Positions 1,990-48,245 of a stretch of DNA of 64,000 nucleotides are shown in pieces. A program made the position numbers and the translations under genes. Numbering within the stretch: position 1 is the stretch's first letter; each line of letters begins with the position of its first letter. The stretch is from a virus. Under the pieces are notes generated by a model. The model worked only from the letters and a program-made list of their open reading frames with translations, did not search any database and had not been told where the DNA came from. Location of the stretch: positions 62,001-126,000 of the IMG/VR virus record IMGVR_UViG_3300035181_000357; one strand, 5' to 3'.

Positions 1990-2901
1990 TTAAGGACGAG
2001 TGATGACGCAACGGCTGACAGCTGAAGGGTTGAATACGAGGAATCCAAGGTTCTCGAATACAGCGAATCCAATCTGACGGAGGTCAGGACGATCAGCAGA
2101 CATAACGGTTAGAGGAATACGCTCAGGAATTACGCCGAGGAATTCTGCATCACCTAGGATGTATACTGTGCTTGCTGGTACTTTTCTGCTCTGTAGGATA
2201 GTGGCACCCCATACATAGCCCATAACACCAGTCTTTAGTAACTTACGCTCAGTCTCACGATCGACGGTTGCATCGGTCCACTTACGTAGATCGGTGTAAT
2301 CACGAGGATTCATGAATACGAAGGCGACACTAATGTCGTGGCGTTCTACAAGTCCATAAGCATCAGCTAACTTAGCTGGAGTAACGGCACCAGAGATGGC
2401 GACGTCAGGGTTGTAGATAGGATCAGTTTCCGTAGCACCTGCAGCAAGGGCAGCGGCAGCGATGGCATTGAAGAGACCGAAGACATAGTTATCTTCCTCG
2501 GCACCAACCTCAGCCTTAGCTAAGTTTAGTGAACGCTCTACGATGTCAAATCTACGCTCCTTGATCTGCGTGATAGGAATCATTGGGTTGCTGGTGATAT
2601 CGAAAGTAGGAACTGTTACTCTCTTAGGCTTGGTGACATTCATGATGTCTCCGCCTTCTTCACCGACTACGAAGGCCTGCACGAAGGAGCGACCAGTTTC
2701 GTCGAATTCCTTGTCGTAGATTGGTAGAGCACCTTCAGGAAGGGTCTCGACCATTAGAGCCTTACGAGCGATGCTCATGTAGTCTCTACGTCTACGGAGT
2801 GAAGGTCCTAGGGCTGCTGCTAGCTTCTGACGTCCACCAGGGGACTTAAGAAGAAGACCTAGCTGAGCCATCTGCTGTTGAGTGCGTGATAGTGTTCTCA
2901 T
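1990..2901 (-). CDS. Major capsid protein (HK97-fold type)
   Basis: 303 residues. The evidence is the overall pattern of HK97-fold phage capsids: a helical N-terminal segment, a long central region with an Ala-rich helix (about 150-160), and a beta-rich C-terminus whose AVFENLGFLVFNPSAV pattern before a final Ile/Thr strand is typical of major head proteins. Context supports this: it follows prohead protease, scaffold-like and decoration-like genes in transcription order, has GAGAGG before its ATG, and is closed by its own strong terminator. Preferred-codon use is visible compared with the small genes nearby, as expected of a very abundant protein. Confidence 0.75.
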   Translation of the reverse strand: MRTLSRTQQQMAQLGLLLKSPGGRQKLAAALGPSLRRRRDYMSIARKALMVETLPEGALPIYDKEFDETGRSFVQAFVVGEEGGDIMNVTKPKRVTVPTFDITSNPMIPITQIKERRFDIVERSLNLAKAEVGAEEDNYVFGLFNAIAAAALAAGATETDPIYNPDVAISGAVTPAKLADAYGLVERHDISVAFVFMNPRDYTDLRKWTDATVDRETERKLLKTGVMGYVWGATILQSRKVPASTVYILGDAEFLGVIPERIPLTVMSADRPDLRQIGFAVFENLGFLVFNPSAVSRCVITRP

Positions 2902-4949: not shown

Positions 4950-5858
4950 TTATTTGAACATAGAGTTCAAAGCAGCGACATCTTTATTAGTCACCATATT
5001 ATCGTTAGAAAGTCTATTATTTATTTCTTTACCAGATGCAGCTTTAGCGATCTTATCGCTTAAGTCCTTAGCAGACTTAGGATTTACAGATGGACCGGAC
5101 CATTCATTTGCGATAATGCCTCTGTTAACAGCTCCAGGGAATGCTGGAGTTTCGACCCAGGAGGCTTCAATGAATGTTACACCACCATTTGGTAGTGATT
5201 TGTGTCCACATAGTTCAGCTACGCGTCTAGCGATACCATCGTCATCTGGTAGAAATTGACCCTTATGCCTAGATAGGTGATAACAATTTGTATCACCTTC
5301 TTTAACTTGATGTCCACAATATGAACAGATTACGACATCTGTAACACAACCCATAGACATGTATCTCACGTCACCAGTTCTGATCTCAGATACTAGGTCT
5401 TCATGCTCTAAAGCAGTAGCAACCAGCAGATCACAGAAATAAACCCAGGTTTCTGGACCAGCAATCTGAATCTTTCTCAGGATAGAATCAACAATAGTTC
5501 CTTTTGATTCTTTTGTATTCTGATAATGCTCTAAGAAATTAAATGAGCCTACGAACGATCTGTGACTTAATCTCAGTACTTCATTCTCCCAGGCATCATC
5601 ATTGTTATTTACAAGGTGAGATGTTTCAGGTTTGATGTACCAATCGTATGGGTCGGATTCTGTCATTACAGAAGCCATAATAGTGCAGTGTGATAAAAGA
5701 TACTTCTTCTCGTTAGGGAGACCAGCAGTCTTCATCATCGATGTTCTTATTCTATCACCATGTAGATTCTGCCAATCTCTCAGAGAGAAGATAGGATCAG
5801 CTACTTTTGCTGCAGATGACTTTTTAATTTTACCCTTGTATAGATCCATGATATCCAT
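4950..5858 (-). CDS. Prohead (head maturation) protease, putative
   Basis: 302 residues. Two blocks resemble the herpesvirus-assemblin-like prohead proteases of large phages: SFNFLEHYQ (candidate catalytic His111) and RYMSMGC (candidate Ser168), followed by a Cys/His cluster (C178-x2-C181, C192, H194), then a beta segment ending TFIEASWVETPAFPGA, matching the 'E-x-S-x-V-x-x-P-A' end of these proteases. The role would be cleavage of scaffold and capsid N-termini inside the prohead. Its position upstream of scaffold-like and capsid genes supports this. Its ATG overlaps the preceding gene's stop by one base. Confidence 0.65.
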   Translation of the reverse strand: MDIMDLYKGKIKKSSAAKVADPIFSLRDWQNLHGDRIRTSMMKTAGLPNEKKYLLSHCTIMASVMTESDPYDWYIKPETSHLVNNNDDAWENEVLRLSHRSFVGSFNFLEHYQNTKESKGTIVDSILRKIQIAGPETWVYFCDLLVATALEHEDLVSEIRTGDVRYMSMGCVTDVVICSYCGHQVKEGDTNCYHLSRHKGQFLPDDDGIARRVAELCGHKSLPNGGVTFIEASWVETPAFPGAVNRGIIANEWSGPSVNPKSAKDLSDKIAKAASGKEINNRLSNDNMVTNKDVAALNSMFK

Positions 5859-10450: not shown

Positions 10451-13400
10451 TTAAGCCTTTGTGGTAACTTTGAGGGTTACGTTGATGTACAGTAGAGAGA
10501 AGACAGGCTTGAAGGCTACTGTGACATCTAGGACAGTAGGATCAGACTCGTTACGAGTAACTTGTAGACCCTTATAGGCTTCAATAATTTCTTGTTGAAC
10601 GAAGTTCTTCATGACAGAGTTCATCACGATCGTAACATCATTAACAAGAGCTCCGAGGTTCTTTCTTCCGATGAATTGATTGAGTTCCTTGCGGATCTTC
10701 TGTCTTACTTCATCAGAGATTGAGGTATTGGTTGGTTCCTGCGTGATAGGATTGCTCATATCAGTGGTTAGGTAGTGGCGAACAGTGAAGGCACCATTAT
10801 CCTCTATCAATACAGAGACTCCATCAGTTGCGATCTGATCCATGGTTGGATCGTCATATCTCTGGAGGAGACGCTCGAATCCGACCATCTTCTTACGAGT
10901 AAGAGTGGTAGCAGAATCGATTGCTGGATTGCCCTTCATACCTGCCATTGCAGCAGCTAGGAACTCACCACCAACAGCGTACTCAGAAGACTTACCATCA
11001 ACTTCTAGGCTGATGATTGCACCTGCTGGATATACAGCGACGACACGCTCTGACTTGATACTTTGAGCTCTTGATCTTGCATCTACTGGAGAAGTTCCAG
11101 TGCTGAAGCCTACAAAGCCCATAGCCTCTCCCTTATTACGAGGAGCAGCTTGTGTATTGAGGTGCTTGGCTAAGAATTGTTGAACACTCTTCTCAGTGTT
11201 TAAAGGCACAATAACAGAAGCCTTTGTGGTTCCACCAGTGATTGGACGAGCTAGAGAAGCAATACCATCGATGAAAGTCTGGTTAGATGCAATTGCTGAA
11301 CCAACTTGCTTCTTGAGCTGCATGCATCCGAGAGTGGTTGTACCATTCAGGACAGCAAGGCGAGCAGCGAGGGATAGCTTGTTTTCTACAGTAGGATTAC
11401 CATAAGCAGCATATACATCAGACAGGTTCGTGAAGATCTTTAACTCATAATCCTTATCGGTCTTTGCAGTCTTGAAGGATACATAGTAGAACTCACCAAC
11501 AGTTGGTTCTGCACCAGCCTTATTATAGGTGTTGATGAAGAGGTAATCATTTGCAGCCATTCCAAAGGTGGTCGATACCTTGGTACGGATACCAGGGATT
11601 GCAACAACTGGAACAGTAGAAGTGACATAGTGGACGCTCTTGCTTACGACGAATACTAGAGTGTCACCAGGAGCATAACGATAAGAGATTGGAGCGGTTA
11701 GACCATAGTCAGCAATGTTTGAGGCATTTGGATCCACGATCGTGACAGAGAATCCAGTGACAGAGTCGTTGTAAGTCTGACCGAGGTACCCGATACCAGC
11801 AGATCCACCAGTTACTAGGTTGGAAGATACAGTGTACTTGCTGCTGAATGCAGTATTTACATCAGGAGTACCACCAGCGAAGTTCAACTTAGCAGAAGTA
11901 GTAGCATTAGTAGAACCAGTACCAGTTAGTGTAGCAGTGATTAGTCCACCAGCAGTGGTTACTAGAGCACCAGCACCTAATGCAGCGTTTGCAGTGAAGA
12001 GGGCTACGATCTGGGTAAGGGTTCTTACAGTACCAGCACCATCAGTGATCTCTACAGAGACATCGTTACCAACGATAGTTAATGCAGCTGCATCTAATGT
12101 ATTTCCAGTGTTCTTGAACTGGATGGATACTGGAGTTACAGCAGAATCAAACTTATTGAATGTTCTGAAAGTGATACCAGTCTGAGCAGTAGTGTTAGTT
12201 GCCTGAGTTCCAGGAGTCTGAAGATAGCTCTCTCCAGTTGTAGCGAAGGTTAAGGTTACGACCTCTTCCTCGGCACCAGCAACAATCTTGGCATCAGAGA
12301 AAGTATTAGGCCACAGAATACCACCAGAGGAGGTGAAGACTGGGTCAGCTACAGTGTGAGTAGATTGATTGACAGTTGGGATCTGAAGATCGTTCTTATC
12401 CCAGATAGAGTAAGAACCCTGTCCGGTTACGCCAGGAACTTGTACCTTGACCTTGAACTTGTTATCAGCAAGACGAGACTTGAAGTATGTTACATAGACA
12501 CTTCCAGTTGCAGGAGGATTGAAGAGAGTTACTCTCTTATTTGCTCCATCAACTGAAGAGATGGTTACAGGAACTAGAGCAGCAGTTGGAGTAGCTCTGG
12601 TGTAGGCTTTTACATAAGCAGGATTATCGGTTACTCTTGATAGACCAGATCCAGTAGTAGGAGCATCCTTAAGAGTAAATACGTTGTTGATTCCATTCAC
12701 TGAACCAGTTGCTAACTCAAGGTAGACCTTATCATCCACGAGAGTGGCGATGATGTGAGAAGCATCGAAGGCGGTGAATCCACTAGATTGTAGACCAGCA
12801 GAAGCTGATACGGAAGCTCCCCACTGAATTTTATCACCCTCTAGGACATAGTCGATAGTGTTGATGAAGTCATCTCTATCAGGGGAGAATCCACACTTTA
12901 AGATCTCAGTAATATTTTCAGCAGGTAGGAAGTCGAAAGTATCCTGATAGGTGTTGGTGAAATAGGTAGTTAGTAAGGTCGAACCAAAAGCTACATCCCC
13001 ATTTAGAGTTATTAAACCATTTAAACCATCTACTGACGTAACACCAACGGCAGAACCGTTAACAGTTACTTTGACGTGAGCAGGGAGGTTGGTTACAACA
13101 CCACCGTTTGAACCATCTACGATAGGTAGGTTCTTGACCTTGAAGACCTTGCTAGTGCTCTGGCCTTCTCCACCAACGAATGGTGCAGAAGTAGCAGCGA
13201 CAGCAGCAGAACCACCACTAAGAGTGGCAGTTACCTGGATCAAACCACCAGAGGCAGTGATGATTCCAGTGTTGATTAAGGTAGCGAGTTCAGCGATAGT
13301 TCTATGAACAGGAACGGCAACGGTTCCCTTGACTAATTCGATTGAGATAACATCTGTACCCTGCCCACTGATGGCTAGAGTGTCAGATTTAGGAGCACCG

Positions 13401-13969
13401 AGGGTCTCAGTGAAAGCTACGGTAACATTATTCCCTGCGAAGCCTGGCTTCTCTAACTTGAGAGACAGGTTACCAGCCTGGGCTACTAGGGTTGCAAACT
13501 TAGGAATCTGGACGCTGAGATCTTCATCAGTTACTAAGTCATCACTTCTTTTGAAGAAGTAACTAGTTCTTAGATCAGAACCAGGGAGGAGAATAACATC
13601 GATTAGGAATTTTCCTGTGGCGCCATCTAAGGTCGAGACACTAATAGGATTCCCATCAACGGTTACAGAGATATCAGTTGGTGTGTTTGTAGTAGTTCCA
13701 CGACCATCCCCATTAACAATTGGGAAGTAGGCAACCTGGAATTCTCGCTTAACACCATCGACTTGGTCACTTAGATTTTCTAAGACCTTTCTGTCGTCTG
13801 ATGAAGAACTAGAACCTCTGTGGAGTTCCGCATTATTAGAGGTTTTAAATTCTTCTCCTTCTCCGAGAAGGACAGTGATACGAGCATCTCCGAAGAGTGA
13901 AGTACCAGCATCTTCGGTAGTAAGAGTAGTGTAGACACCGGGTTGGGCGTATTGATCAAAAAGAGCCAT
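10451..13969 (-). CDS. Tail sheath protein, extended with repeat domains
   Basis: The C-terminal ~330 residues carry the conserved contractile-sheath fold: a nucleotide-like region with YPAGAI, a segment ending RKMVGFERLL, then DVTIVMNSVMKNF, and the final strand pair ending in YINVTLKVTT, which hooks neighbouring subunits. Length is 1172 residues from the ATG at 13969 (preceded by GGAGA); an in-frame ATG at 13981 has poorer spacing. T4 gp18 has 659 residues, so this is far larger. The extra length is mostly two kinds of beta repeat: three copies of one (about 76-141, 275-341, 430-496) and two copies of another (about 179-268 and 634-702). They probably decorate the outside of the tail. Confidence 0.85.
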   Translation of the reverse strand: MALFDQYAQPGVYTTLTTEDAGTSLFGDARITVLLGEGEEFKTSNNAELHRGSSSSSDDRKVLENLSDQVDGVKREFQVAYFPIVNGDGRGTTTNTPTDISVTVDGNPISVSTLDGATGKFLIDVILLPGSDLRTSYFFKRSDDLVTDEDLSVQIPKFATLVAQAGNLSLKLEKPGFAGNNVTVAFTETLGAPKSDTLAISGQGTDVISIELVKGTVAVPVHRTIAELATLINTGIITASGGLIQVTATLSGGSAAVAATSAPFVGGEGQSTSKVFKVKNLPIVDGSNGGVVTNLPAHVKVTVNGSAVGVTSVDGLNGLITLNGDVAFGSTLLTTYFTNTYQDTFDFLPAENITEILKCGFSPDRDDFINTIDYVLEGDKIQWGASVSASAGLQSSGFTAFDASHIIATLVDDKVYLELATGSVNGINNVFTLKDAPTTGSGLSRVTDNPAYVKAYTRATPTAALVPVTISSVDGANKRVTLFNPPATGSVYVTYFKSRLADNKFKVKVQVPGVTGQGSYSIWDKNDLQIPTVNQSTHTVADPVFTSSGGILWPNTFSDAKIVAGAEEEVVTLTFATTGESYLQTPGTQATNTTAQTGITFRTFNKFDSAVTPVSIQFKNTGNTLDAAALTIVGNDVSVEITDGAGTVRTLTQIVALFTANAALGAGALVTTAGGLITATLTGTGSTNATTSAKLNFAGGTPDVNTAFSSKYTVSSNLVTGGSAGIGYLGQTYNDSVTGFSVTIVDPNASNIADYGLTAPISYRYAPGDTLVFVVSKSVHYVTSTVPVVAIPGIRTKVSTTFGMAANDYLFINTYNKAGAEPTVGEFYYVSFKTAKTDKDYELKIFTNLSDVYAAYGNPTVENKLSLAARLAVLNGTTTLGCMQLKKQVGSAIASNQTFIDGIASLARPITGGTTKASVIVPLNTEKSVQQFLAKHLNTQAAPRNKGEAMGFVGFSTGTSPVDARSRAQSIKSERVVAVYPAGAIISLEVDGKSSEYAVGGEFLAAAMAGMKGNPAIDSATTLTRKKMVGFERLLQRYDDPTMDQIATDGVSVLIEDNGAFTVRHYLTTDMSNPITQEPTNTSISDEVRQKIRKELNQFIGRKNLGALVNDVTIVMNSVMKNFVQQEIIEAYKGLQVTRNESDPTVLDVTVAFKPVFSLLYINVTLKVTTKA
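12482..13744 (-). repeat. Three diverged ~66-residue beta repeats within the sheath gene
   Basis: Copies lie at 13547-13744, 12947-13147 and 12482-12682. Each follows F-x-[VL]-x4-P, then a TNxP or DNPA turn, a strand containing VTV or KAY, 'SxxDGxxG/NK' and a final TxYF. The level is protein similarity, not DNA identity, so they are old duplications. Confidence 0.75.
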
Positions 13970-14066
13970 GCTTTTCTCCATTTTCAGTTATACAACTAAG
14001 GTATATGAAATTCTAATCCTTCACTATAGATAAGGCGAAGTCATTATCTATCTGTTGTTGACCAAA

Positions 14067-14493: not shown

Positions 14494-14511
14494 TGTCACC
14501 TTAATTAATAA
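14494..14511 (-). promoter_or_regulatory. Translation-start leader shared with the gene at 48960
   Basis: The 18 bases TTATTAATTAAGGTGACA sit exactly one base before the ATG of the FmdB-like gene, and the identical 18 bases sit one base before the ATG at 48960 on the other strand. AAGGTGA is the ribosome binding site. Identity extends well beyond it, so either the leader is selected or it has been copied. Confidence 0.6.
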
Positions 14512-16055
14512 TATGATGTTAAGAATCTCGAACTACCATATGTAGTCCCAATAGGGTTGATACTAACCCTTTTATTGGGATATGAGTAATCAAAAGAGAC
14601 ATTTTCGATATCTATCGTGTCCAGTCTGGTGACAAGAGGCTTCTTGACTTCCCAGTCGGCTGCAGCAGAGATTGAGAGAGTTACAGTCTGGGTGGATAAA
14701 ATACCAGAACCATCCTTTTCTTCAGAATTCGTAGATCTAGAAGCTTCATATATTGTAAGACCACAGGTCTCCATCCTCTCTCGTCCAGAGACGAGGAGGT
14801 ACTCTTTTATCAGACCTGCTATCTCACTAGAAGTTCTCATATCATTAGTTCGAATATCAATGTCAAACCTAATATTCTCTTTTGAACCATAAATCTCATA
14901 AGTCTCGTTGACATATGGATATACAATCATAGCAGATTGATCACCTACTACAGTTTTGTCACCGATCACAACCATGATACCTGGTAGAAAATTAACATTG
15001 AGAGCATTCTTAGTTGCTTTTATCTCAAACTGGCCTAGATCTACTCTACACTCCCAGGACATATTATCTCCTGGTTGGAGTAGAGGATTTAAATACCATC
15101 TACCATCCAAGCCTGTTACTAGATCTGAATATGTGTAAGTTTTCCCACTGGCTACTGCTTTAAACTGTTCAGTCTGGATCGTTTGACCAGGAACCAGTTC
15201 AAAATTTATAGAATTCTCGGATGCTATATAACCAGCAGCATTAGGATCTCGCTTGAAAGTTCCCACCATTCTTAACTTTTGATTAGCTGGAGTCCAATTT
15301 GACAAAACAATATCACTTCCAGATATTCGATAATCTAGATCTCGCCTTAGGATATAATCGTCTTGATCAACAACTTCGAACTGAATATAACTTGTATCTG
15401 GTAGTTTTAGTACTTGAACGCCTGATACCGTAGCTTCTGTGATCGTTGGTTCTTCGTGAAGTTCTACCCAATAATCTATTAAAGGAATTAAATTTGAATC
15501 ATTACTTATCTTGTATAACGAAACGATGTCTTTATATACATTTATATAAATTCTATCATTTGCCACACAATACTCTCCAGCATTCATATTTCGAACACCG
15601 ACATCTGTGGATGGGATAGCTGCATTTAGTTTTATGAATGTACCAACTGCATTAGTTACTTTTCCGTAGACCCATTTCATCTTTTCACATGTGATGACGA
15701 CAGAGCGATTGGCCTCATCCACTGAATCTAGATTAAAGTAGTAGATGCCAGATTCTGGATCTTTAAGAGTTTTGTCAATCTCCTGGATATGTTCTATGAA
15801 TAGACCATCTTTATCTTCTAGCTTTGCAGCTACCACCCTACCTTGTTGTGTCGCCATATAATGATCTGAGGACAGGCGATTACCATCTGAGGTTGGGTTC
15901 TTTATGATTATTTCCAAGTCGTTGTAACGCATCATAGTAGCGAAATATGAGCCTATTTCTCCACCTAGCTCCCTAAATCTTGGGTGCTTTGCTACTACGC
16001 TCCTCAATTCCCTGATTAAGAAGGAATCGAGGTTGATATCGGTAAGCTCAACCAC
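14505..16055 (-). CDS. large virion structural protein, unknown (neck/tail type by context)
   Basis: 516 residues, predicted mainly beta with an alpha/beta C-terminal domain (from about 395: a strand, RTNDMRTSSEIAG helix, and a strand run). It overlaps neither neighbour in frame but its stop lies upstream of the FmdB-like gene's start by a negative gap, so the two share a transcript. Position directly before the sheath suggests a tail terminator, neck or tail-fibre attachment protein. No family is recognised. Confidence 0.45.
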   Translation of the reverse strand: MVELTDINLDSFLIRELRSVVAKHPRFRELGGEIGSYFATMMRYNDLEIIIKNPTSDGNRLSSDHYMATQQGRVVAAKLEDKDGLFIEHIQEIDKTLKDPESGIYYFNLDSVDEANRSVVITCEKMKWVYGKVTNAVGTFIKLNAAIPSTDVGVRNMNAGEYCVANDRIYINVYKDIVSLYKISNDSNLIPLIDYWVELHEEPTITEATVSGVQVLKLPDTSYIQFEVVDQDDYILRRDLDYRISGSDIVLSNWTPANQKLRMVGTFKRDPNAAGYIASENSINFELVPGQTIQTEQFKAVASGKTYTYSDLVTGLDGRWYLNPLLQPGDNMSWECRVDLGQFEIKATKNALNVNFLPGIMVVIGDKTVVGDQSAMIVYPYVNETYEIYGSKENIRFDIDIRTNDMRTSSEIAGLIKEYLLVSGRERMETCGLTIYEASRSTNSEEKDGSGILSTQTVTLSISAAADWEVKKPLVTRLDTIDIENVSFDYSYPNKRVSINPIGTTYGSSRFLTSYY

Positions 16056-16722: not shown

Positions 16723-18927
16723 CTATCTCCTAGATTTTATCAATTTCGATTTTCTATTAAATTTCTGTTCATCTTTATTTATATGATTCTTAATCAGGGC
16801 CATGAAATCGCTAAATATCTCAGGATCTTGATATCTGTAGGACAGATAGCTGTTAAAGGCAGCTGAGTTATTAGATAGCTCTATATACTTAGATTTTTCT
16901 ATCAATTCTAGAATATCTTCATCTGTGTACCCAACATTTCTCAATTCAGATACGGCCTCACGAGCATAGGCATGCATCTCTTCCGGAAGTTCGAAGTAGT
17001 AACCCTCATTACGGGCCTCTAAGTATTCTTCATCCAAAAGAGTCTTACCTTCATCATGATCCTTCTGATGTTGAAGTTCATGAGATAGGTATTCCTCCAC
17101 CCCATCCTGGAACTGATTCCATCCTTCGAAAGTAGACAGTTTCCCTCTCTTAGTTGGATCTATATATAATATGACCCACCTGTTCTTTACCTGAATCTTT
17201 GCACTATCTAAGAATCCTTTATTTGGACCAGTATGTGCTTTCCTGACCTCTAACTTGGATATACCAACAACAGGCTTCATCCCTTGTAAAATTGCGTTAA
17301 GATCCTTCATAAACTCTATATTGGATTTCTTAGATGCTCTTACGATCTGATTCTTGACCTTGGCAAGGAAGATATGAATATCTTCTGCGAAAGAGGCTAT
17401 CTTTACCTTTGTGATACCTTTATCTCCACCAGCACTAAATTCAGCATCTTTTATCTTGAGATCCTTATCCTTAAACAAGTCTGGGAATTTCTTTATATAT
17501 TTATCAGCTAACCCTGGTTTTAGATATGCAATAGTTAGATGTGGACTATACTTTGGAAATTTGCTGACATTATCTGGATAAAGTTCTTTCAGTGTCTTTT
17601 CTGTATCTACTAGTTCCTTAGATTTCTCTATCTTTATAATCAGGACGTCCCTGCCATCATTTTCAAACTTATTCAGACCCTCTAAAGTTACTGTCTTTAA
17701 CCCAGATTCTTTAACTGCTTTTTCGAGGCGTCCATCATCTTCCTTTTCAAGAATGCCATACAAGAGAGTGATATGAGTCTGGTCTTCCACACCCTCTTCA
17801 TCCAAATCTTCTTTATCTATATTAGCTTTAATGAAATCTTGAATAGACTTAGTTATATCATCGTCTAATGTCAACTGTGTATTGGAATACTTATACTCTA
17901 CACCTTTCTTTGCTGTCTTAACACTTTTACCTGTCACTTCTCGAGCTCCATACTTTTCTTTAAAAGTCTTCAATTCATCTCGATCTATCGTAACAGCTAT
18001 CTCAGTCTCACCCATATCTCGTAACACAGCCCAACGATGACGACCATCTCCAAACATGATATTCTTACTAGGAGTCAATCCAAGATTAGGAGGATCAATA
18101 GGAGTTTCAGGGTAATCTACCAGCCACTGTTTAAATTTCTGATATCTAGTACCGATAGCAGCACCAGATCCATTCTCTCCTACATAGAAATTCTCATCTT
18201 TTGAATAAGAGGCTTCCACTTTCTTGACATCTACTATAACCCGGATCTCATCTCTGCGGGGGATTCTTGGTTGATATGTTTGAGAACTCATCTTAGTAAG
18301 GGCTTCAGATACCAGCTTCAGGAACTGTTTTTGTACTTTAGGAGATGCTTCATTAATGTAGTGATTCATCCCGTTATCAATTTTTGCAATCTCAGATCTA
18401 TTCAACATACTGTTGATATCTCTACCATCTCCCATAGCTTTATCACGAAGGATCTTTGCAACTTCATAAGCATGGGCAGCTATTTCCTGAGTGTCTTTAT
18501 AATAATCAGCTTCTGATCCTTTATCCTTTGGTGTTCTTGCGACAGTTTCTAGATCCAACCATGAGTATTTATATCTATCCACTAGGGGTTTATTAGCCAG
18601 CGCTACATTAGCCATCTGTCCAATATGTACAATCTCGTGATATATAGTCTTTCTAAGGTTTTCACCCTCTAACTCATCTTTTATCTCTATGATATATCTA
18701 AAGACTCTTTCTTTACCACCAGTTGCAAAAGCACGGGCAACACCTGCGTAGTCTATCCCTTTTATGAATTCTACTTTTGATCCTTTATCAACAACGTAGT
18801 CTTGCTCTGCCATCATTTCTTTCAGATTCTTATCTATAGAGTCTCTAATCATCTTTGGGTTTGAATAGTCACTAATAGTATTTATGACTCTGTTAGTAAA
18901 TTTATTAGTCCTGTCTGCTAGTCTCAT
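16723..18927 (-). CDS. Multidomain protein: two HExxH metallopeptidase-like domains, ParB-like motif and 2H phosphoesterase
   Basis: 734 residues with four recognisable parts. (1) Residues ~40-200: HEIVH (97-101), followed by QEIAAHAYE (about 147-155) whose Glu could be the third zinc ligand. (2) ~285-320: FGDGRHRWAVL, like the DGxHR core of ParB/sulfiredoxin-like domains. (3) ~345-515: a 2H phosphoesterase, with HITL (His385) and HLTI (His463) separated by ~78 residues, as in LigT/cyclic-phosphodiesterase and Acb1-like enzymes that open phosphodiester bonds of small nucleotides or RNA ends. (4) ~540-700: HELQH (616-620) with EEMHAYARE (~649-657). Both peptidase parts share the same layout, suggesting duplication. 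TAGGTGA precedes the ATG. It lies in the tail module, so it may be virion-packaged. An anti-CBASS role is possible but unproven. Confidence 0.7.
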   Translation of the reverse strand: MRLADRTNKFTNRVINTISDYSNPKMIRDSIDKNLKEMMAEQDYVVDKGSKVEFIKGIDYAGVARAFATGGKERVFRYIIEIKDELEGENLRKTIYHEIVHIGQMANVALANKPLVDRYKYSWLDLETVARTPKDKGSEADYYKDTQEIAAHAYEVAKILRDKAMGDGRDINSMLNRSEIAKIDNGMNHYINEASPKVQKQFLKLVSEALTKMSSQTYQPRIPRRDEIRVIVDVKKVEASYSKDENFYVGENGSGAAIGTRYQKFKQWLVDYPETPIDPPNLGLTPSKNIMFGDGRHRWAVLRDMGETEIAVTIDRDELKTFKEKYGAREVTGKSVKTAKKGVEYKYSNTQLTLDDDITKSIQDFIKANIDKEDLDEEGVEDQTHITLLYGILEKEDDGRLEKAVKESGLKTVTLEGLNKFENDGRDVLIIKIEKSKELVDTEKTLKELYPDNVSKFPKYSPHLTIAYLKPGLADKYIKKFPDLFKDKDLKIKDAEFSAGGDKGITKVKIASFAEDIHIFLAKVKNQIVRASKKSNIEFMKDLNAILQGMKPVVGISKLEVRKAHTGPNKGFLDSAKIQVKNRWVILYIDPTKRGKLSTFEGWNQFQDGVEEYLSHELQHQKDHDEGKTLLDEEYLEARNEGYYFELPEEMHAYAREAVSELRNVGYTDEDILELIEKSKYIELSNNSAAFNSYLSYRYQDPEIFSDFMALIKNHINKDEQKFNRKSKLIKSRR

Positions 18928-20015: not shown

Positions 20016-21605
20016 TTATCTCAATTCTTTCCAACTTAGAGAGCCACTATTTACAACTGGGCTACCATCTATTTTACTAGCCACTATAATCCAGGGGTAA
20101 GAGGGAGTTCCGTCAGCATTAGTAATAATTCCTTCGTCATTGTTATTAAAGAAATTACGAAGGTTAAAGGAATGAGCACCAGCGTCAGCAAAATGAGAAA
20201 AATACAGCCATGAATCTGCGTCTGGTATGGCAGCAGTAGCAGCAGTGTCTATCTCCATAGCGGTATTATTGGCAATAGTAGAAGCCCAAGTATCCCCCAC
20301 TAGAGTAGTAGGCCAATAAAAATCCAACCTAACAGTCCCACCAGAGACATAGCAATTATATTCTTCTGGGTAGGAGTTCACTGGATTACGCCTCCCTCCA
20401 TACAAAGTCTTAGCTCTAATTGAAATTAGAGGCATGTTGTCACCAGTTATGACTTTTGAAGGATGTAAAGCCGAATTTCTGTAGTAGGTGTAGTCAATTA
20501 GACCATCACATTTAACTACTAAACAAGTTAAACGAAGTTGAGTGATAGTTCCAGTAGCAGCAGTATTGAAGTTTTCTGCACGAACTGGTAACGAACCTGA
20601 CTTCATATAGGGGTAGGTATTTTTTCCAGAATTTTGGAATTCGTGGATCACAACACGAGAACCATCGGGACCAATGATACCCAAACGAACTTTACCAGCC
20701 CCTAGCCACTGTAAGTCAATAAAGTAGACTATGGCTTTGTTCCAGGTGATGTTAACACCCGAGAGTCCGGTGCCATCAAGTTTATCAACATTCCAATCTG
20801 CTTGAGGCACTCTTTGAGTGGTGCCTAGGGTTGAGCTTCGCAGACACACATAGACCATTGTGTCTTTCATTTCAAAATAGATACCATCGTTTTCATCAAA
20901 GAAGCCTATGCGTCTGGTGTTACCTACAACTCCAGTATCACTTAAAGCAGCCGACATAATAATAGTGGTTCCATTTCCAGGCCAATAGTAATGACATTTA
21001 TTAGAGGTTCTAATTACAGAATCCCCACTGGCGGCAGAGCATGTCATGTCTACCGTGGAGGTTACCGGATTATATTCTTCAGTGGCTGATCCTGTAATCA
21101 CAGTAGAAAATAGATCAAAACCACCATCTGAGGAGAATTCGTATACTCCAATAGTGCTTGGGTCAGAAACTTTTTGACCACCAAAGGCATCGAATAAGGG
21201 AGAACCCTCGGAGAACCTAACGCTGGCAGCACCTTTGACATCCACATGCTGACCGTAAAGGGGGTTATTATCTCCCATGATTTGAGTTCTGGATACATAT
21301 AAAGGTGTCCCGGTGCCAATAACTGTAGCAGTTCCAGGAGGAGTAATACCAACGAAAGTAAGAGTTTCAACATTAACTACAGCCTCTGGTGCTTCATGAT
21401 AAATTTTAACATATACGGCCCCAGATACAGCATCAACTGGGACGACCTTTACTACTTCTCCCAACAGACCTGAAACACTGCCAGTTACAACATCACCTAA
21501 CTGAATATCTCCTGTTAAGTTATTATAGTCGATGTCTAAATAGCAACCAGCAGCGAGCATCTTGCCAGTGCCATCAGGTGGTATTCTAATATGAGATTGT
21601 GACAT
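20016..21605 (-). CDS. large beta-rich structural protein, lectin-like
   Basis: 529 residues, almost wholly predicted beta, with alternating Gly/Thr/Ser turns. The central ~150-370 has the look of a concanavalin-like jelly roll (for example TRRIGFFDENDGIYFEM, later VYFIDLQWLGAG). Such domains sit on phage tails and heads and may bind carbohydrate. AGGATAAGGA precedes the ATG. It lies between a tail-region gene and the decoration-type array. The family is not certain. Confidence 0.5.
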   Translation of the reverse strand: MSQSHIRIPPDGTGKMLAAGCYLDIDYNNLTGDIQLGDVVTGSVSGLLGEVVKVVPVDAVSGAVYVKIYHEAPEAVVNVETLTFVGITPPGTATVIGTGTPLYVSRTQIMGDNNPLYGQHVDVKGAASVRFSEGSPLFDAFGGQKVSDPSTIGVYEFSSDGGFDLFSTVITGSATEEYNPVTSTVDMTCSAASGDSVIRTSNKCHYYWPGNGTTIIMSAALSDTGVVGNTRRIGFFDENDGIYFEMKDTMVYVCLRSSTLGTTQRVPQADWNVDKLDGTGLSGVNITWNKAIVYFIDLQWLGAGKVRLGIIGPDGSRVVIHEFQNSGKNTYPYMKSGSLPVRAENFNTAATGTITQLRLTCLVVKCDGLIDYTYYRNSALHPSKVITGDNMPLISIRAKTLYGGRRNPVNSYPEEYNCYVSGGTVRLDFYWPTTLVGDTWASTIANNTAMEIDTAATAAIPDADSWLYFSHFADAGAHSFNLRNFFNNNDEGIITNADGTPSYPWIIVASKIDGSPVVNSGSLSWKELR

Positions 21606-26284: not shown

Positions 26285-26821
26285 TTACGCCAGACTTGAC
26301 CAGAATTCACAGTAGACATCTACAGTACCGACACCAGATGATACACCAGCAGCAGTAACAGCCAGACCTTCATTTGTATTCAAGACAATTGGTTCAATGT
26401 TTGTATCTCCATATCCAGAGTCCCATAGGATACTAAATTGGGGCATAGCCAGGAGGTTCTCAACCTTAGAAGCCGAGTTGATCATCTCATCTCCAGACCA
26501 TATAATCTGTCTGAATGTATCTACGAGAGTCACAGATGTTGAAGTAGCAGTAGCACAAGTGACACTTAAAGCATTAGTAAGGGCTAGTGTATCATGTTGA
26601 ATAGGGACAATGGCAGTACCAGAAGCCTGGTCAGTTGTGAATCTTCCAAGGGATACTGTCTGGAATACTCCAGTTACAACTGCCACACCCGTATTCTGTA
26701 ACCACACTCTGGTCACATTCAATTTCATAGTGGCATGTGTATTGTATATTTTAAATAACGTTTTAGCTGCAGCTGATGTTGGCATTGCAACAGCAGAGGC
26801 AACAGCAGTAAATGTTCTCAT
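26285..26821 (-). CDS. array member 5: small virion-like protein
   Basis: 178 residues. It has the array signatures VTRVWLQNT (about 35-45) and ILWDSGYGDTNIEPIVL (about 131-148), and ends in a strand (VDVYCEFW). AAGGAG precedes the ATG. It is the last of five consecutive paralogs, next to the 579-residue relative. Probably a capsid- or tail-surface protein by composition and neighbourhood; no experimental family is recognised. Confidence 0.6.
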   Translation of the reverse strand: MRTFTAVASAVAMPTSAAAKTLFKIYNTHATMKLNVTRVWLQNTGVAVVTGVFQTVSLGRFTTDQASGTAIVPIQHDTLALTNALSVTCATATSTSVTLVDTFRQIIWSGDEMINSASKVENLLAMPQFSILWDSGYGDTNIEPIVLNTNEGLAVTAAGVSSGVGTVDVYCEFWSSLA

Positions 26822-26830
26822 TCTATCTCC

Positions 26831-27385
26831 TTAGGTTGCGGTAATGGTGCATTCAACGACAATATCAACGGTACTGGCACCAAAAACTCCAGCATTTAGA
26901 GAATAGATTCGTATACCTTCTCCAGCCGTTCTGAGGACGATAGGTTCTATTGTAGTGTCACCATATCCTGAGTCCCATATGTAGTTCAAAGCAGGTAAAG
27001 TCTGCAATTCATCAACAGTCAGGGATGCAGATGTTGGTTCATCGTTTGATCTAGTCCAAGTCTTCAGCACACCTAAGGAATTAACACCTGTTAACGTAAT
27101 AGCGACATTCCCGTTTAGACATGTGATACCAGATGGAACTGCAGCAGATGCCGTATTATGTTTGATAGCTGCTGTCGTAGTACCACCTGCTGGAGCTGAT
27201 CCTCCTATACGTTCTAGAACGTAGGTTCCAAAGCCACCTGTAACAGAAGCCGTACTGGAACTAGTCATCCAAATTCTATATATACGAACGACGTTAGCCG
27301 ATGCAAGATTATTCAGAGTGAACATAGTTTTGTTGATTGCTTGGACACAAGCTGGAGCTCGATAACAATAAGTTGCGTTAGCCAT
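26831..27385 (-). CDS. array member 4: small virion-like protein
   Basis: 184 residues with the signatures RIYRIWMTSS, WTRSNDEPTSAS and YIWDSGYGDTTIEPIVLRT. The 'WDSGYGDTxIEPIVL' block is almost identical to member 5, the closest pair in the array. It starts two bases after the stop of member 3, suggesting coupling. Function unknown; likely the same as its paralogs. Confidence 0.6.
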   Translation of the reverse strand: MANATYCYRAPACVQAINKTMFTLNNLASANVVRIYRIWMTSSSTASVTGGFGTYVLERIGGSAPAGGTTTAAIKHNTASAAVPSGITCLNGNVAITLTGVNSLGVLKTWTRSNDEPTSASLTVDELQTLPALNYIWDSGYGDTTIEPIVLRTAGEGIRIYSLNAGVFGASTVDIVVECTITAT

Positions 27386-27387
27386 AT

Positions 27388-27963
27388 TTACACCATCTCA
27401 AATTCTATAAAGAAGTCAGCAGATCCAACAGGAGCTGTTAAAACAGGTGATGCTACTTGGGTCCAGGCAGAATCACATATTATCCCCATACCATAGCCTT
27501 CTCTTAATATATAGGGTTCTACAGTAGTGTTTGTATAAGACCAGGAGTTATTTATGCACATATTTAGGGCAGGGACCGTCTCCCATTCATCTATACCAGA
27601 AGATCCTAAAGTTGCGTTACCTTCTGAGGCGATCGGTTCATCAGAAGACCATAAAAATTGTTTAAATAGACGATCTTTTGTATAGTTAAGACCCTGGCTA
27701 CATACTAAGGCAGCAGGGGTATTTGGGCTAATAGAATCGTGCTTCAATGCAGGAACTGCCAAGCCTCCAGATCCTGTTGAGAATCTCCAGATACTCATTC
27801 TATTTAAGAGATTCAAAGACTGAGCTACCGTCTGATTATTCAGGATCCAAGCTCTGTACACTTTTATAGTAACACCAGACCCAACACCATTATAGAGACC
27901 GAGCATACATTTGTCTTGTACGAAGGCGACACCATTGGCAGCAATAGTATAGTAGTTAGCCAT
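27388..27963 (-). CDS. array member 3: small virion-like protein
   Basis: 191 residues with KVYRAWILNN, LWSSDEPIAS and VEPYILREGYGMG in the same order as its paralogs, but the WDSGYGD block is altered (CINNSWSYTNTTVEPYIL). Its ATG overlaps member 2's stop by one base (TAATG). It is the most diverged at the WDSGYGD block, which hints at different partner binding. Confidence 0.6.
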   Translation of the reverse strand: MANYYTIAANGVAFVQDKCMLGLYNGVGSGVTIKVYRAWILNNQTVAQSLNLLNRMSIWRFSTGSGGLAVPALKHDSISPNTPAALVCSQGLNYTKDRLFKQFLWSSDEPIASEGNATLGSSGIDEWETVPALNMCINNSWSYTNTTVEPYILREGYGMGIICDSAWTQVASPVLTAPVGSADFFIEFEMV

Positions 27964-28508
27964 TAAGTCACCGTGAATTCACAGAAGATATCGACCATAC
28001 CAGCATTAGCAGGGGCAGTGGCTGTTAAACCAACATTCTGAACTATCATACAAACAGTTTGTCTCAACACCAAGGGTTCAACATTCATGTCATTATATGA
28101 GGTATCCCAAAGAACGTTCCAAGCTCCTGGGAGTTGAAGAACAGCGGGTAATGCTGTCTGGACAGCTGGTTGGTTGTTTGTCCATACTCGTCTTCTGAGA
28201 ATAACAGCTGTACCTGAAGTAATCGTTTCTTTAGAAGCACAGATTATACCGGAAGGGAAAGCTGCATTAGTCGAGTCCATACTGACTGGAGTCCACAGCA
28301 TGCTGTTAGATACGTATGTTGGGGCCACGTTACGAGTTAATGTCAGGATATTCTGAGAAGCTGTTGTTGGTGTTACTTCATTATTCTGAATCCAGATACG
28401 GTAAATACTTACAATAGATGTAGCGTTATTATTGTATATTGAAAACAAGCTCTCGTTAGCAAGAGCCAGAGGAACTCCAGTTGCTTGTACCTGCCAAGTA
28501 GCTGCCAT
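27963..28508 (-). CDS. array member 2: small virion-like protein
   Basis: 181 residues from the ATG at 28508, which overlaps the preceding paralog's stop by one base; a GTG 15 bases earlier is in frame but less likely. It has SIYRIWIQNN, RVWTNNQPA and LWDTSYNDMNVEPLVLRQ, aligning with the array signatures, and a final VDIFCEF strand. Confidence 0.6.
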   Translation of the reverse strand: MAATWQVQATGVPLALANESLFSIYNNNATSIVSIYRIWIQNNEVTPTTASQNILTLTRNVAPTYVSNSMLWTPVSMDSTNAAFPSGIICASKETITSGTAVILRRRVWTNNQPAVQTALPAVLQLPGAWNVLWDTSYNDMNVEPLVLRQTVCMIVQNVGLTATAPANAGMVDIFCEFTVT

Positions 28509-29044
28509 TAGATTATTGTACACTCCAGAAATAGATCAGCTTGTCCAATAGAACCACCTGTGTTGATAACTCCTAGACCCTCACCTGGACGGAGTACAAT
28601 AGGTTCGGTATTTGGATCGGCATAACCTAGGGAAAAGATCTGTCCGAATGGTAGGAATATTTCAAATTCATCCAAGGTCGCAGCTGTAGTACCAGAGGCG
28701 TTGGATGGTTCATCTGTTGACCAGATAACCCTCTTATACAAGGAGGTTGCTGTGAAGCTCATATTCGTACCACTGATGACACCAGAGGCTGCAATACCAG
28801 TACGAGCGGTTGAAGCTGAATCATGTGCTACAGGTGTAATAGTAGTACCACCAGAAGCAGCAGTCAACTTTCTAATCTCAAGATTCGTGAGTACCCCAGT
28901 AACAGTTACCAATTGATTATTTAGGCACCAGATTCTATATACTCGGATAACCAACCCAGAAGCTGCTTCATTGAATATGCCTACCATACACTTGTTGGCT
29001 GCAAATGCGATATTCTGAGCTGGAATTGTGTACGTTGCTGCCAT
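28508..29044 (-). CDS. array member 1: small virion-like protein
   Basis: 178 residues, first of the array in transcription order. Signatures: RVYRIWCLNN, VIWSTDEPSNAS, IFSLGYADPNTEPIVLRPGEGLG and ADLFLECTI. The order strand - YRIW-NN - WS-x-DEP - GY-D-EPIVLR-GEG - strand is conserved in all five. Its stop overlaps the next gene by one base. Likely a decoration or fibre protein. Confidence 0.6.
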   Translation of the reverse strand: MAATYTIPAQNIAFAANKCMVGIFNEAASGLVIRVYRIWCLNNQLVTVTGVLTNLEIRKLTAASGGTTITPVAHDSASTARTGIAASGVISGTNMSFTATSLYKRVIWSTDEPSNASGTTAATLDEFEIFLPFGQIFSLGYADPNTEPIVLRPGEGLGVINTGGSIGQADLFLECTII

Positions 29045-46908: not shown

Positions 46909-48063
46909 TCAGCAGAACCAAGGATGAGTAGAGGGAGGCACCTTAGGTGCTTCTAATTCTGCATATCCTAGTTCCATACACGAAGAAGCTAGAACCTGAC
47001 TTCTAAGCCTGTTCTTTCCTCTTCGTTTTGAGATGATACCAGTATCCTGGATAATCTTAAACGCGATAGCACCTTCCGCCTGTCGCGATCTCCCAATCCT
47101 TTTGATGATCATATCGATATCGTCAAGATTGTTCTTAGTGTCTTTCTTATGTTTACTAAGGAAGACGAATCTACAATTCTTAGAAATCTCTTTAAAAAGA
47201 GAATTAAGATACTTGTAGTGGTTCTTTCGAACCCTATCTGCTTTGACACTGATCTCTAATTCCTTACCGGTATCGAGGCTCAGAACCTTTATACTTAGAT
47301 GATCGTTGTCAGCAGCAATACCAATATCTAAGGAACCAGAAGGTGTAGTATCAGTTGCTTCGACGGATTTCAAGACCATATAATAATATCTGTGATCTCG
47401 TCTTACAACCTTTATACTCTTAACATCTGCCTTTTTAATACTGGATGGTATGGTTACAGAAGTTTTTAATTTCTGTAACCTGGTTTCTAGTTCTTTTATC
47501 AGGTTCTTGGTCTTGGTCTCATATCTACTAAATGTGATATGGATAGGATCTTCATCCTCTTCATAATCCCAAGACATCTTACTCAATCTCGAGGTCTCTA
47601 ATTCAGTCTTCGATTTCAATTCCATGCTAATCTTACTAAGTTTATTCTGTAAGATTCGTCTCGTTTTCCCAGTGGCTACATCAGAACGTTCCTGGTTTCG
47701 CTTCATTTCATAGCGTCTCTTGTTTTCGATTCGCTTCAGATTCAGATATTCGGTTTCAAGTTTCGTGTTCAGAGTTTTTAGTCTTTTGTCTGTTTTCGGT
47801 CGCAGGTGTCGTTGGGTGAGTTTACGTTTACGTTGGTAGTCTTTCAGGCATATCTCGACGATCTCTCTATCCCGTACTAACATGGAGGCTACATCTATGC
47901 ATAGCGCATTGGGTTCAGAAGAAAAAGATTCGGGGGTTAGGTTCTGGATTCGGCCACCAGAAGCGTCTATACCCACTAGACAATTCCACACCATTCTGTA
48001 GATCAAGAACTGCTGACCATAGTCGCCAGTTCTAACAAATGATCTTCTTACAACAGATGACAT
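46909..48063 (-). CDS. TnpB/Cas12-type protein, possibly truncated
   Basis: 384 residues from ATG at 48063 (in-frame GTG at 48075). Residues ~210-240 (VKSIKVVRRDHRYYYMVL) resemble the TnpB wedge strand; SLDIGIAADN (~243-252) carries the RuvC-I Asp; helices follow; SQVLASSCMELGY then APKVPPSTHPWFC end the frame where TnpB proteins have the zinc-finger start. In the RuvC-II position (FVFLSKHK) the usual Glu is absent, and RuvC-III with the second Asp is lost after the TGA stop. So it could be a nuclease-dead TnpB-like RNA-guided repressor or a decayed nuclease. It is flanked by a direct repeat. Family call is moderate, as whole-protein comparison was not possible. Confidence 0.5.
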   Translation of the reverse strand: MSSVVRRSFVRTGDYGQQFLIYRMVWNCLVGIDASGGRIQNLTPESFSSEPNALCIDVASMLVRDREIVEICLKDYQRKRKLTQRHLRPKTDKRLKTLNTKLETEYLNLKRIENKRRYEMKRNQERSDVATGKTRRILQNKLSKISMELKSKTELETSRLSKMSWDYEEDEDPIHITFSRYETKTKNLIKELETRLQKLKTSVTIPSSIKKADVKSIKVVRRDHRYYYMVLKSVEATDTTPSGSLDIGIAADNDHLSIKVLSLDTGKELEISVKADRVRKNHYKYLNSLFKEISKNCRFVFLSKHKKDTKNNLDDIDMIIKRIGRSRQAEGAIAFKIIQDTGIISKRRGKNRLRSQVLASSCMELGYAELEAPKVPPSTHPWFC

Positions 48064-48245
48064 GAACAATCTCACAAGTTAGGAACTGATACACTCAAGG
48101 TCAAGTAAATTCTTAATTCTACAAGAAGTTATCGATATCCTGTATAGTAAGAACAACAAGGATGACCGTAACCTGTAACAACCTGTATTCTTAATAATTA
48201 TAATAGATAACTGATAATAAGTAACAATTATAACTTATAATGATG

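Follow-up and report, generated by a model that had tools for sequence, protein, structure and literature searches.

A phage-type polyvalent protein with ParB-like, 2H phosphoesterase and two putative zincin-like domains in the structural gene block of a large soil-type virus of bacteria

Phage-type polyvalent proteins, which Iyer et al. described as a class in 2017, contain one to five zincin-like MPTases, often placed between other domains (PMC5512222). In the same work, the DdrB-ParB domain adjoins structural genes, and 2H domains are confined to phage-type polyvalent proteins, where they were already proposed to be RNases or enzymes of 2'-5' oligonucleotides that may counter host nucleotide signaling (PMC5512222). 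The ParB-MPTase prototype, DdrB of phage P1, has been identified by mass spectrometry as a component of P1 virions (PMC9024508). The related phage considered below, Tunturi_5, is a 309-kb myovirus of Acidobacteriota (PMC11924767).

We analyzed a stretch of 64,000 nucleotides (the window) from a phage record of 210 kb that is akin to the Tunturiibacter jumbo phage Tunturi_5; its source is a large soil-type virus of bacteria. One open reading frame (ORF) of the window encodes a 734-aa protein that is a phage-type polyvalent protein and fits every conclusively tested feature of the class. Functionally unrelated domains (2H, ParB-like and two zincin-like motif domains) are joined in one polypeptide, the gene lies among late virion genes, and the domains come from the polyvalent network and recombine between relatives (Tunturi_5 gp321 and the loci L002, L084, L093 and L098). 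The ORF, its domains and motifs, and the surrounding virion genes are as follows.

1990–2901, minus strand: major capsid protein (phrog_2522; 66% identical to Tunturi_5)
4950–5858, minus strand: head maturation protease (phrog_18299; 54% to Tunturi_5 gp331)
10451–13981, minus strand: tail sheath (phrog_2839, E = 1e-30; collinear with Tunturi_5 gp326)
14505–16055, minus strand: tail-terminator-like neighbor, 516 aa (34% identical to Tunturi_5 gp324, annotated as tail terminator)
16723–18927, minus strand: ORF of the polyvalent protein, 734 aa, ATG start, no internal stops (ORF list, domain scans, AF2)
16777–17385, minus strand: zincin-like domain B, C-terminal, residues 515–717 (L002 relative and AF2 topology)
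16963–16980, minus strand: EMHAYA, putative third-ligand Glu helix of domain B, residues 650–655 (EMHAFA in L002)
17068–17082, minus strand: HELQH, putative zinc-binding/catalytic motif of domain B, residues 616–620 (HETQH in L002)
17413–17895, minus strand: 2H phosphoesterase domain, residues 345–505 (PF13563, AF2, Foldseek)
17533–17541, minus strand: HLT, second HxT motif, residues 463–465 (H and T fully or almost fully conserved in alignments A3 and A5)
17767–17775, minus strand: HIT, first HxT motif, residues 385–387 (likewise in A3 and A5)
17908–18243, minus strand: ParB-like domain, residues 229–340 (homologues in L084, a Nodularia phage and L093)
18034–18051, minus strand: GDGRHR of the ParB-like domain, residues 293–298 (G-R-H-R invariant in alignment A6)
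18262–18927, minus strand: zincin-like domain A, N-terminal, residues 1–222 (HExxH and ExxAxA motifs)
18469–18486, minus strand: EIAAHA, putative third-ligand Glu helix of domain A, residues 148–153 (aligns with EMHAYA of domain B)
18625–18639, minus strand: HEIVH, putative zinc-binding/catalytic motif of domain A, residues 97–101 (sequence and chance estimate)
20016–21605, minus strand: upstream virion structural protein (phrog_1645, E = 2e-57)

The order from the N- to the C-terminus is thus zincin-like A, ParB-like, 2H, zincin-like B. All the motifs that an earlier note on this DNA had read in the protein (HExxH with ExxAxA twice, GDGRHR, and HIT/HLT) are present in the intact ORF, and its placement in a virion module also holds, since the capsid, protease, sheath, tail terminator and virion structural genes surround the ORF. 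The same note called the arrangement unusual; the zincin-ParB-2H-zincin order was indeed found nowhere else and is new among the loci seen, but the kit of domains is standard for phage-type polyvalent proteins, and both the class and the nucleotide-signaling idea have been known since 2017. A comparison of the full protein with genome contigs gave no relative, a PDB search with the single full-length sequence returned chance matches only, and PADLOC gave no match to the protein.

A scan of viral contigs with the tail-terminator neighbor gave no match, and kin were therefore sought in a phage collection, with this neighbor and the capsid protein as queries. The window proved collinear with Tunturi_5 through the capsid, protease, sheath and tail terminator genes to a small gene two places from the ORF. 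The equivalent slot of Tunturi_5 is occupied by a polyvalent protein, gp321 (PP885688.1; 1362 aa, L010:16502-20590), in which Pfam finds an SprT-like zincin (just under the cut-off), a 2H domain, a GNAT and two ART-PolyVal domains (E = 6e-48). The two proteins share the slot, the collinear neighbors, a zincin and the same kind of 2H domain, whereas gp321 has two ART-PolyVal domains and a GNAT in place of the ParB-like domain and the second zincin; the 2H domain alone aligns, with 28% identity over 97 residues. In GenBank, gp321 is labeled 'MutT/NUDIX hydrolase', yet Pfam gives no NUDIX match, and the label is likely a misannotation.

A closer relative, L002, has the same neighbors and is about 59% identical over 2H and zincin B; its contig begins inside 2H, so that the comparison covers 2H onward. 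Its protein carries an additional methyltransferase-like domain at the C-terminus, which, with the neighbors unchanged, indicates that domains are swapped in this gene. Collinear neighbors combined with changed domain content in gp321 and L002 show that the ORF is a variable cargo gene inside a conserved structural block.

Two other features of the window may be mentioned here. Five similar tandem proteins of 178–191 aa, with an EP-I/L-VLR-type segment near the C-terminus, are encoded at 26285–29044 (minus strand) and are probably duplicated virion decoration or fiber genes. At 46909–48075 (minus strand), a 388-aa ORF appears TnpB/Cas12-like by eye, with a beta-rich segment followed by SLDIGIAADND, which resembles RuvC-I; its C-terminal end shows no evident zinc finger or RuvC-III, and no convincing match to it was found in Pfam, PHROG or by tblastn in phages.

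A profile scan found relatives of the 2H domain in 80 loci. In 42 of them the domain lies within an ORF of at least 430 aa, the largest exceeding 3000 aa, and in the 24 of these long ORFs that were scanned its companions are portal families, MuF, ART-PolyVal, GNAT, KptA/PARP-like, DRAT, PBECR5, zeta toxin and helicase domains. These fusions to portal, MuF and ART, together with gp321 in the same slot, lead to the assignment as a phage-type polyvalent protein. In L023, L016 and L039, portal proteins are directly fused to 2H, with MuF or DRAT in the same polypeptide, and the architecture of L098 is ParB, 2H, SprT-like. The other loci mostly encode solo 2H proteins of about 175–240 aa, many of which start with a tag of the MK-aromatic-F-I/L-E type. 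In eight loci of large phages (L004, L029, L044, L045, L049, L054, L055 and L071), solo or short 2H proteins have an N-terminus of the MK-aromatic-xx-F-[I/L]-x-E type; in L004 a similar start is common to many neighboring genes and recalls the T4-type capsid targeting sequence. By eye, one ORF of that locus (L004:7929-9245) continues from 2H into a DEDD-type exonuclease-like segment (DTETTGLNG motif), and in LR756511 a solo 2H gene, identified by eye from translations, lies between the terminase and portal genes.

A similar set of domains in one polypeptide occurs in L084 (IMGVR_UViG_3300031236_000005; at least 2808 aa), which has a homologous ParB, a zincin and 2H; its order differs (ParB, GNAT, zincin, 2H, then many ART-like domains) and its zincin is SprT-like. 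P1 DdrB is comparable by its description in the literature, not by sequence, in that ParB and MPTase are combined in one head-packaged protein, although a 2H domain is not described there. The class as a whole is recognizable here from several unrelated enzymatic domains, interspersed MPTases, ParB with 2H, and the location at virion genes; the domain order, absent from the loci examined, sets our protein apart.

The 2H phosphoesterase proposed in the earlier note was recovered by fold prediction, the check that the note had asked for, with Pfam and AF2/Foldseek in agreement. PF13563 matched the full protein with E = 1e-9 and the cut-out domain with 6.5e-11, exceeding its cut-off, and the domain is the sole Pfam match above cut-off in the 734-aa protein. 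The LigT match on the domain was sub-threshold, as was that of Acb1 (PF23474, 19.9 bits, cut-off 27), and the PHROGs match for the region was phrog_755, 'RNA ligase'. In the AF2 model of the full protein, made from a 43-row alignment, the region has pLDDT mostly of 85–98. When it was compared with the PDB by Foldseek, the top 18 matches, with E <= 1e-3, were all 2H enzymes, and the matches included Usb1, plant CPDase, a Burkholderia phage PDE, the penguinpox cGAMP PDE and LigT; Acb1 7t27 came next (E = 3e-3) with the highest TM-score of the list, 0.67, normalized to its short length. Among predicted viral proteins, the best Foldseek matches were phage 2H proteins, with several Acb1 proteins at E <= 1e-3. 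The alignments, AF2 and Foldseek together place two H-x-T/S motifs in a 2H fold, the hallmark of the superfamily. The domain's likely reaction is hydrolysis of a phosphodiester, the target being either RNA or a nucleotide by which the host signals alarm.

It is quite possible, if short of probable, that the 2H domain is an enzyme of the LigT/ThpR/Usb1 kind, either an RNase or a processor of RNA ends, which would modify the ends of tRNAs or mRNAs early in infection. PF13563 is its best family match, Usb1 and CPDases lead the Foldseek matches, and Iyer et al. preferred to see the 2H domains of polyvalent proteins as RNases or as acting on 2'-5' oligonucleotides, in part because of portal and MuF fusions (PMC5512222). 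This reading has to reckon with the fact that the best solved relative by sequence profile is Acb1, and no RNA ligase neighbor was recognized in the examined part of the window.

We hold with somewhat more reserve the possibility that the domain is an Acb1-like anti-CBASS phosphodiesterase destroying cyclic di- or trinucleotide signals, which would make the protein mainly a particle-carried counter-immunity factor. By sequence profile, the best matches among solved structures are phage PDEs of the Acb1 type (9q2g, 1.1e-5; 7t26, 6.6e-4), ahead of the ThpR-type 2fyh (1.4e-3), and the TM-score of 7t27 points the same way. The 2H fold and both HxT motifs of the tetrad are present, as in Acb1, and in an alignment by eye F457, six residues before the second catalytic His, falls at the stacking position of Acb1 F107, although the lid residues E141 and W147 have no confident counterpart, the F107 equivalent alone being placed (Acb1 residues from PMC9117128). 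Also against this reading are the PF23474 score below its cut-off and the Foldseek E-values, by which Usb1, plant CPDase and LigT rank equal to or better than Acb1. Acb1 chains of known structure stand alone at about 140–165 aa, whereas here the 2H domain is part of a 734-aa protein. To our knowledge, Acb1 has not been described as a virion-borne enzyme. Since sequence profiles lean toward Acb1 and fold E-values toward Usb1 and CPDase, the choice of substrate is left near even. A more specific proposal, that a particle-delivered Acb1-type 2H domain is freed from the polyprotein by the two metallopeptidases and disarms cyclic-nucleotide defenses from time zero, before the phage expresses its own genes, seems improbable.

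The ParB-like domain is also in line with the earlier note, which had read a ParB-like motif there: GDGRHR is present, and its G-R-H-R is invariant among homologues. No Pfam match was obtained for this domain in the 734-aa protein; it is homologous to the ParB of L084 (E = 4e-15) and to Nodularia phage 2AV2_23 (E = 3e-8), and homologues were found in 32 IMG/VR loci, including L093, whose domain is 62% identical and whose architecture is ART-PolyVal, zincin-like, InPase, ParB, zincin-like. The Nodularia homologue, with a weak ParBc_2 match (E = 0.09), has its gene a short distance ahead of those annotated as prohead scaffold/peptidase and major capsid protein. The domain and its homologues have both the G-x-x-R core of the ParB superfamily and a phage late-gene context, and the domain likely acts on DNA or nucleotides.

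Overall, we consider it quite likely that the protein is a late-made, virion-associated polyvalent effector, with a probable place in the head or at the head-tail junction, from which it would enter the cell together with the DNA so that its modules act at the start of infection. Packaging and injection are suggested by the location of the gene and by analogy with P1 DdrB; against them, a capsid-targeting tag was not recognized at the N-terminus. According to this model, the protein would be made late, enter the particle at the head or head-tail junction and pass into the cell with the DNA. The zincin-like domains would then most likely cut their own polypeptide into units and/or cut host proteins, one perhaps cleaving its own chain and the other host proteins, while the ParB-like domain would act on DNA or nucleotides and the 2H domain on a nucleotide signal or an RNA end.

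The protein could instead be a structural or assembly part of the neck or tail that is not injected, its enzyme-like domains serving as maturation proteases and binding modules. The position of the ORF directly between virion genes, near the tail terminator, would suit such a role, and zincin-like peptidases have been proposed for virion maturation in jumbo phages (PMC7824862). However, the domain content varies among related phages while the neighbors stay collinear, unlike a conserved structural part, and the ART and GNAT domains of gp321 have no evident assembly role; this explanation is therefore unlikely.

A point against the effector reading is the zincin assignment, for which profile and fold searches gave no match. 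Both are putatively zincin-like, as judged from motifs, topology and weak A/B similarity: each has an HExxH followed by a Glu-ligand segment, with helices predicted for B by AF2, and neither has a Pfam zincin match. The fold prediction of each part that the earlier note called for, successful for 2H, gave a mixed result here. In the full model, the core of domain A has pLDDT below 50; a domain scan gave a weak LPD1 match, PHROGs gave weak matches to phrog_16532 (2e-5) and phrog_10499 (0.004), both of unknown function, and beyond these the domain alone had no relative in phages, viral contigs or gathered related sequences. Domain B has pLDDT mostly of 75–95 (59–67 around the loop from HExxH to the Glu helix) and the topology helix, three strands, HExxH helix, Glu helix. 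Folded alone, it gave a low-confidence model (pLDDT 62) with no significant fold match and no zincin match in the PDB, and the zincin reading is thus based on its motif and topology and on its conservation in L002. A tblastn search of phages with domain B gave no match and a profile scan matched the L002 contig alone, in which the domain is 56–57% identical and both His and the Glu of HExxH as well as the Glu helix are kept.

The internal duplication suggested earlier receives weak support. In BLASTP, A and B match with E = 7e-5 for a search space of two sequences, and a Smith-Waterman shuffle gives p = 0.0013, whereas hhalign returns a probability of 1.7%, which is uninformative given so few sequences. 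The alignment starts a little ahead of the Glu helix, runs for 80 residues into the helical tail, and does not include the HExxH helix. From these sequence comparisons, a common origin of A and B is likely but not proven.

That the two HExxH sites arose by coincidence, and that domain A, domain B or both are not metallopeptidases, as the absent Pfam zincin match and the separate model of domain B would allow, is improbable given the chance of two HExxH in one protein of such composition (p = 0.0002; p = 5e-5 for one HExxH followed by ExxAxA; 20,000 composition-preserving shuffles of the 734-aa protein), the His and Glu kept in L002, the fit of domain B in the full model to a minimal zincin core, and the similar HExxH...ExxA segments on both sides of ParB in L093.

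The locus adds a jumbo-phage example for the 2017 prediction that 2H enzymes, together with self-cutting peptidases, reach the cell as phage cargo, and because the cultured isolate Tunturi_5 carries an equivalent protein, this prediction is testable. If the 2H domain does cut defense signals, this would be a counter-defense acting before any phage gene expression.
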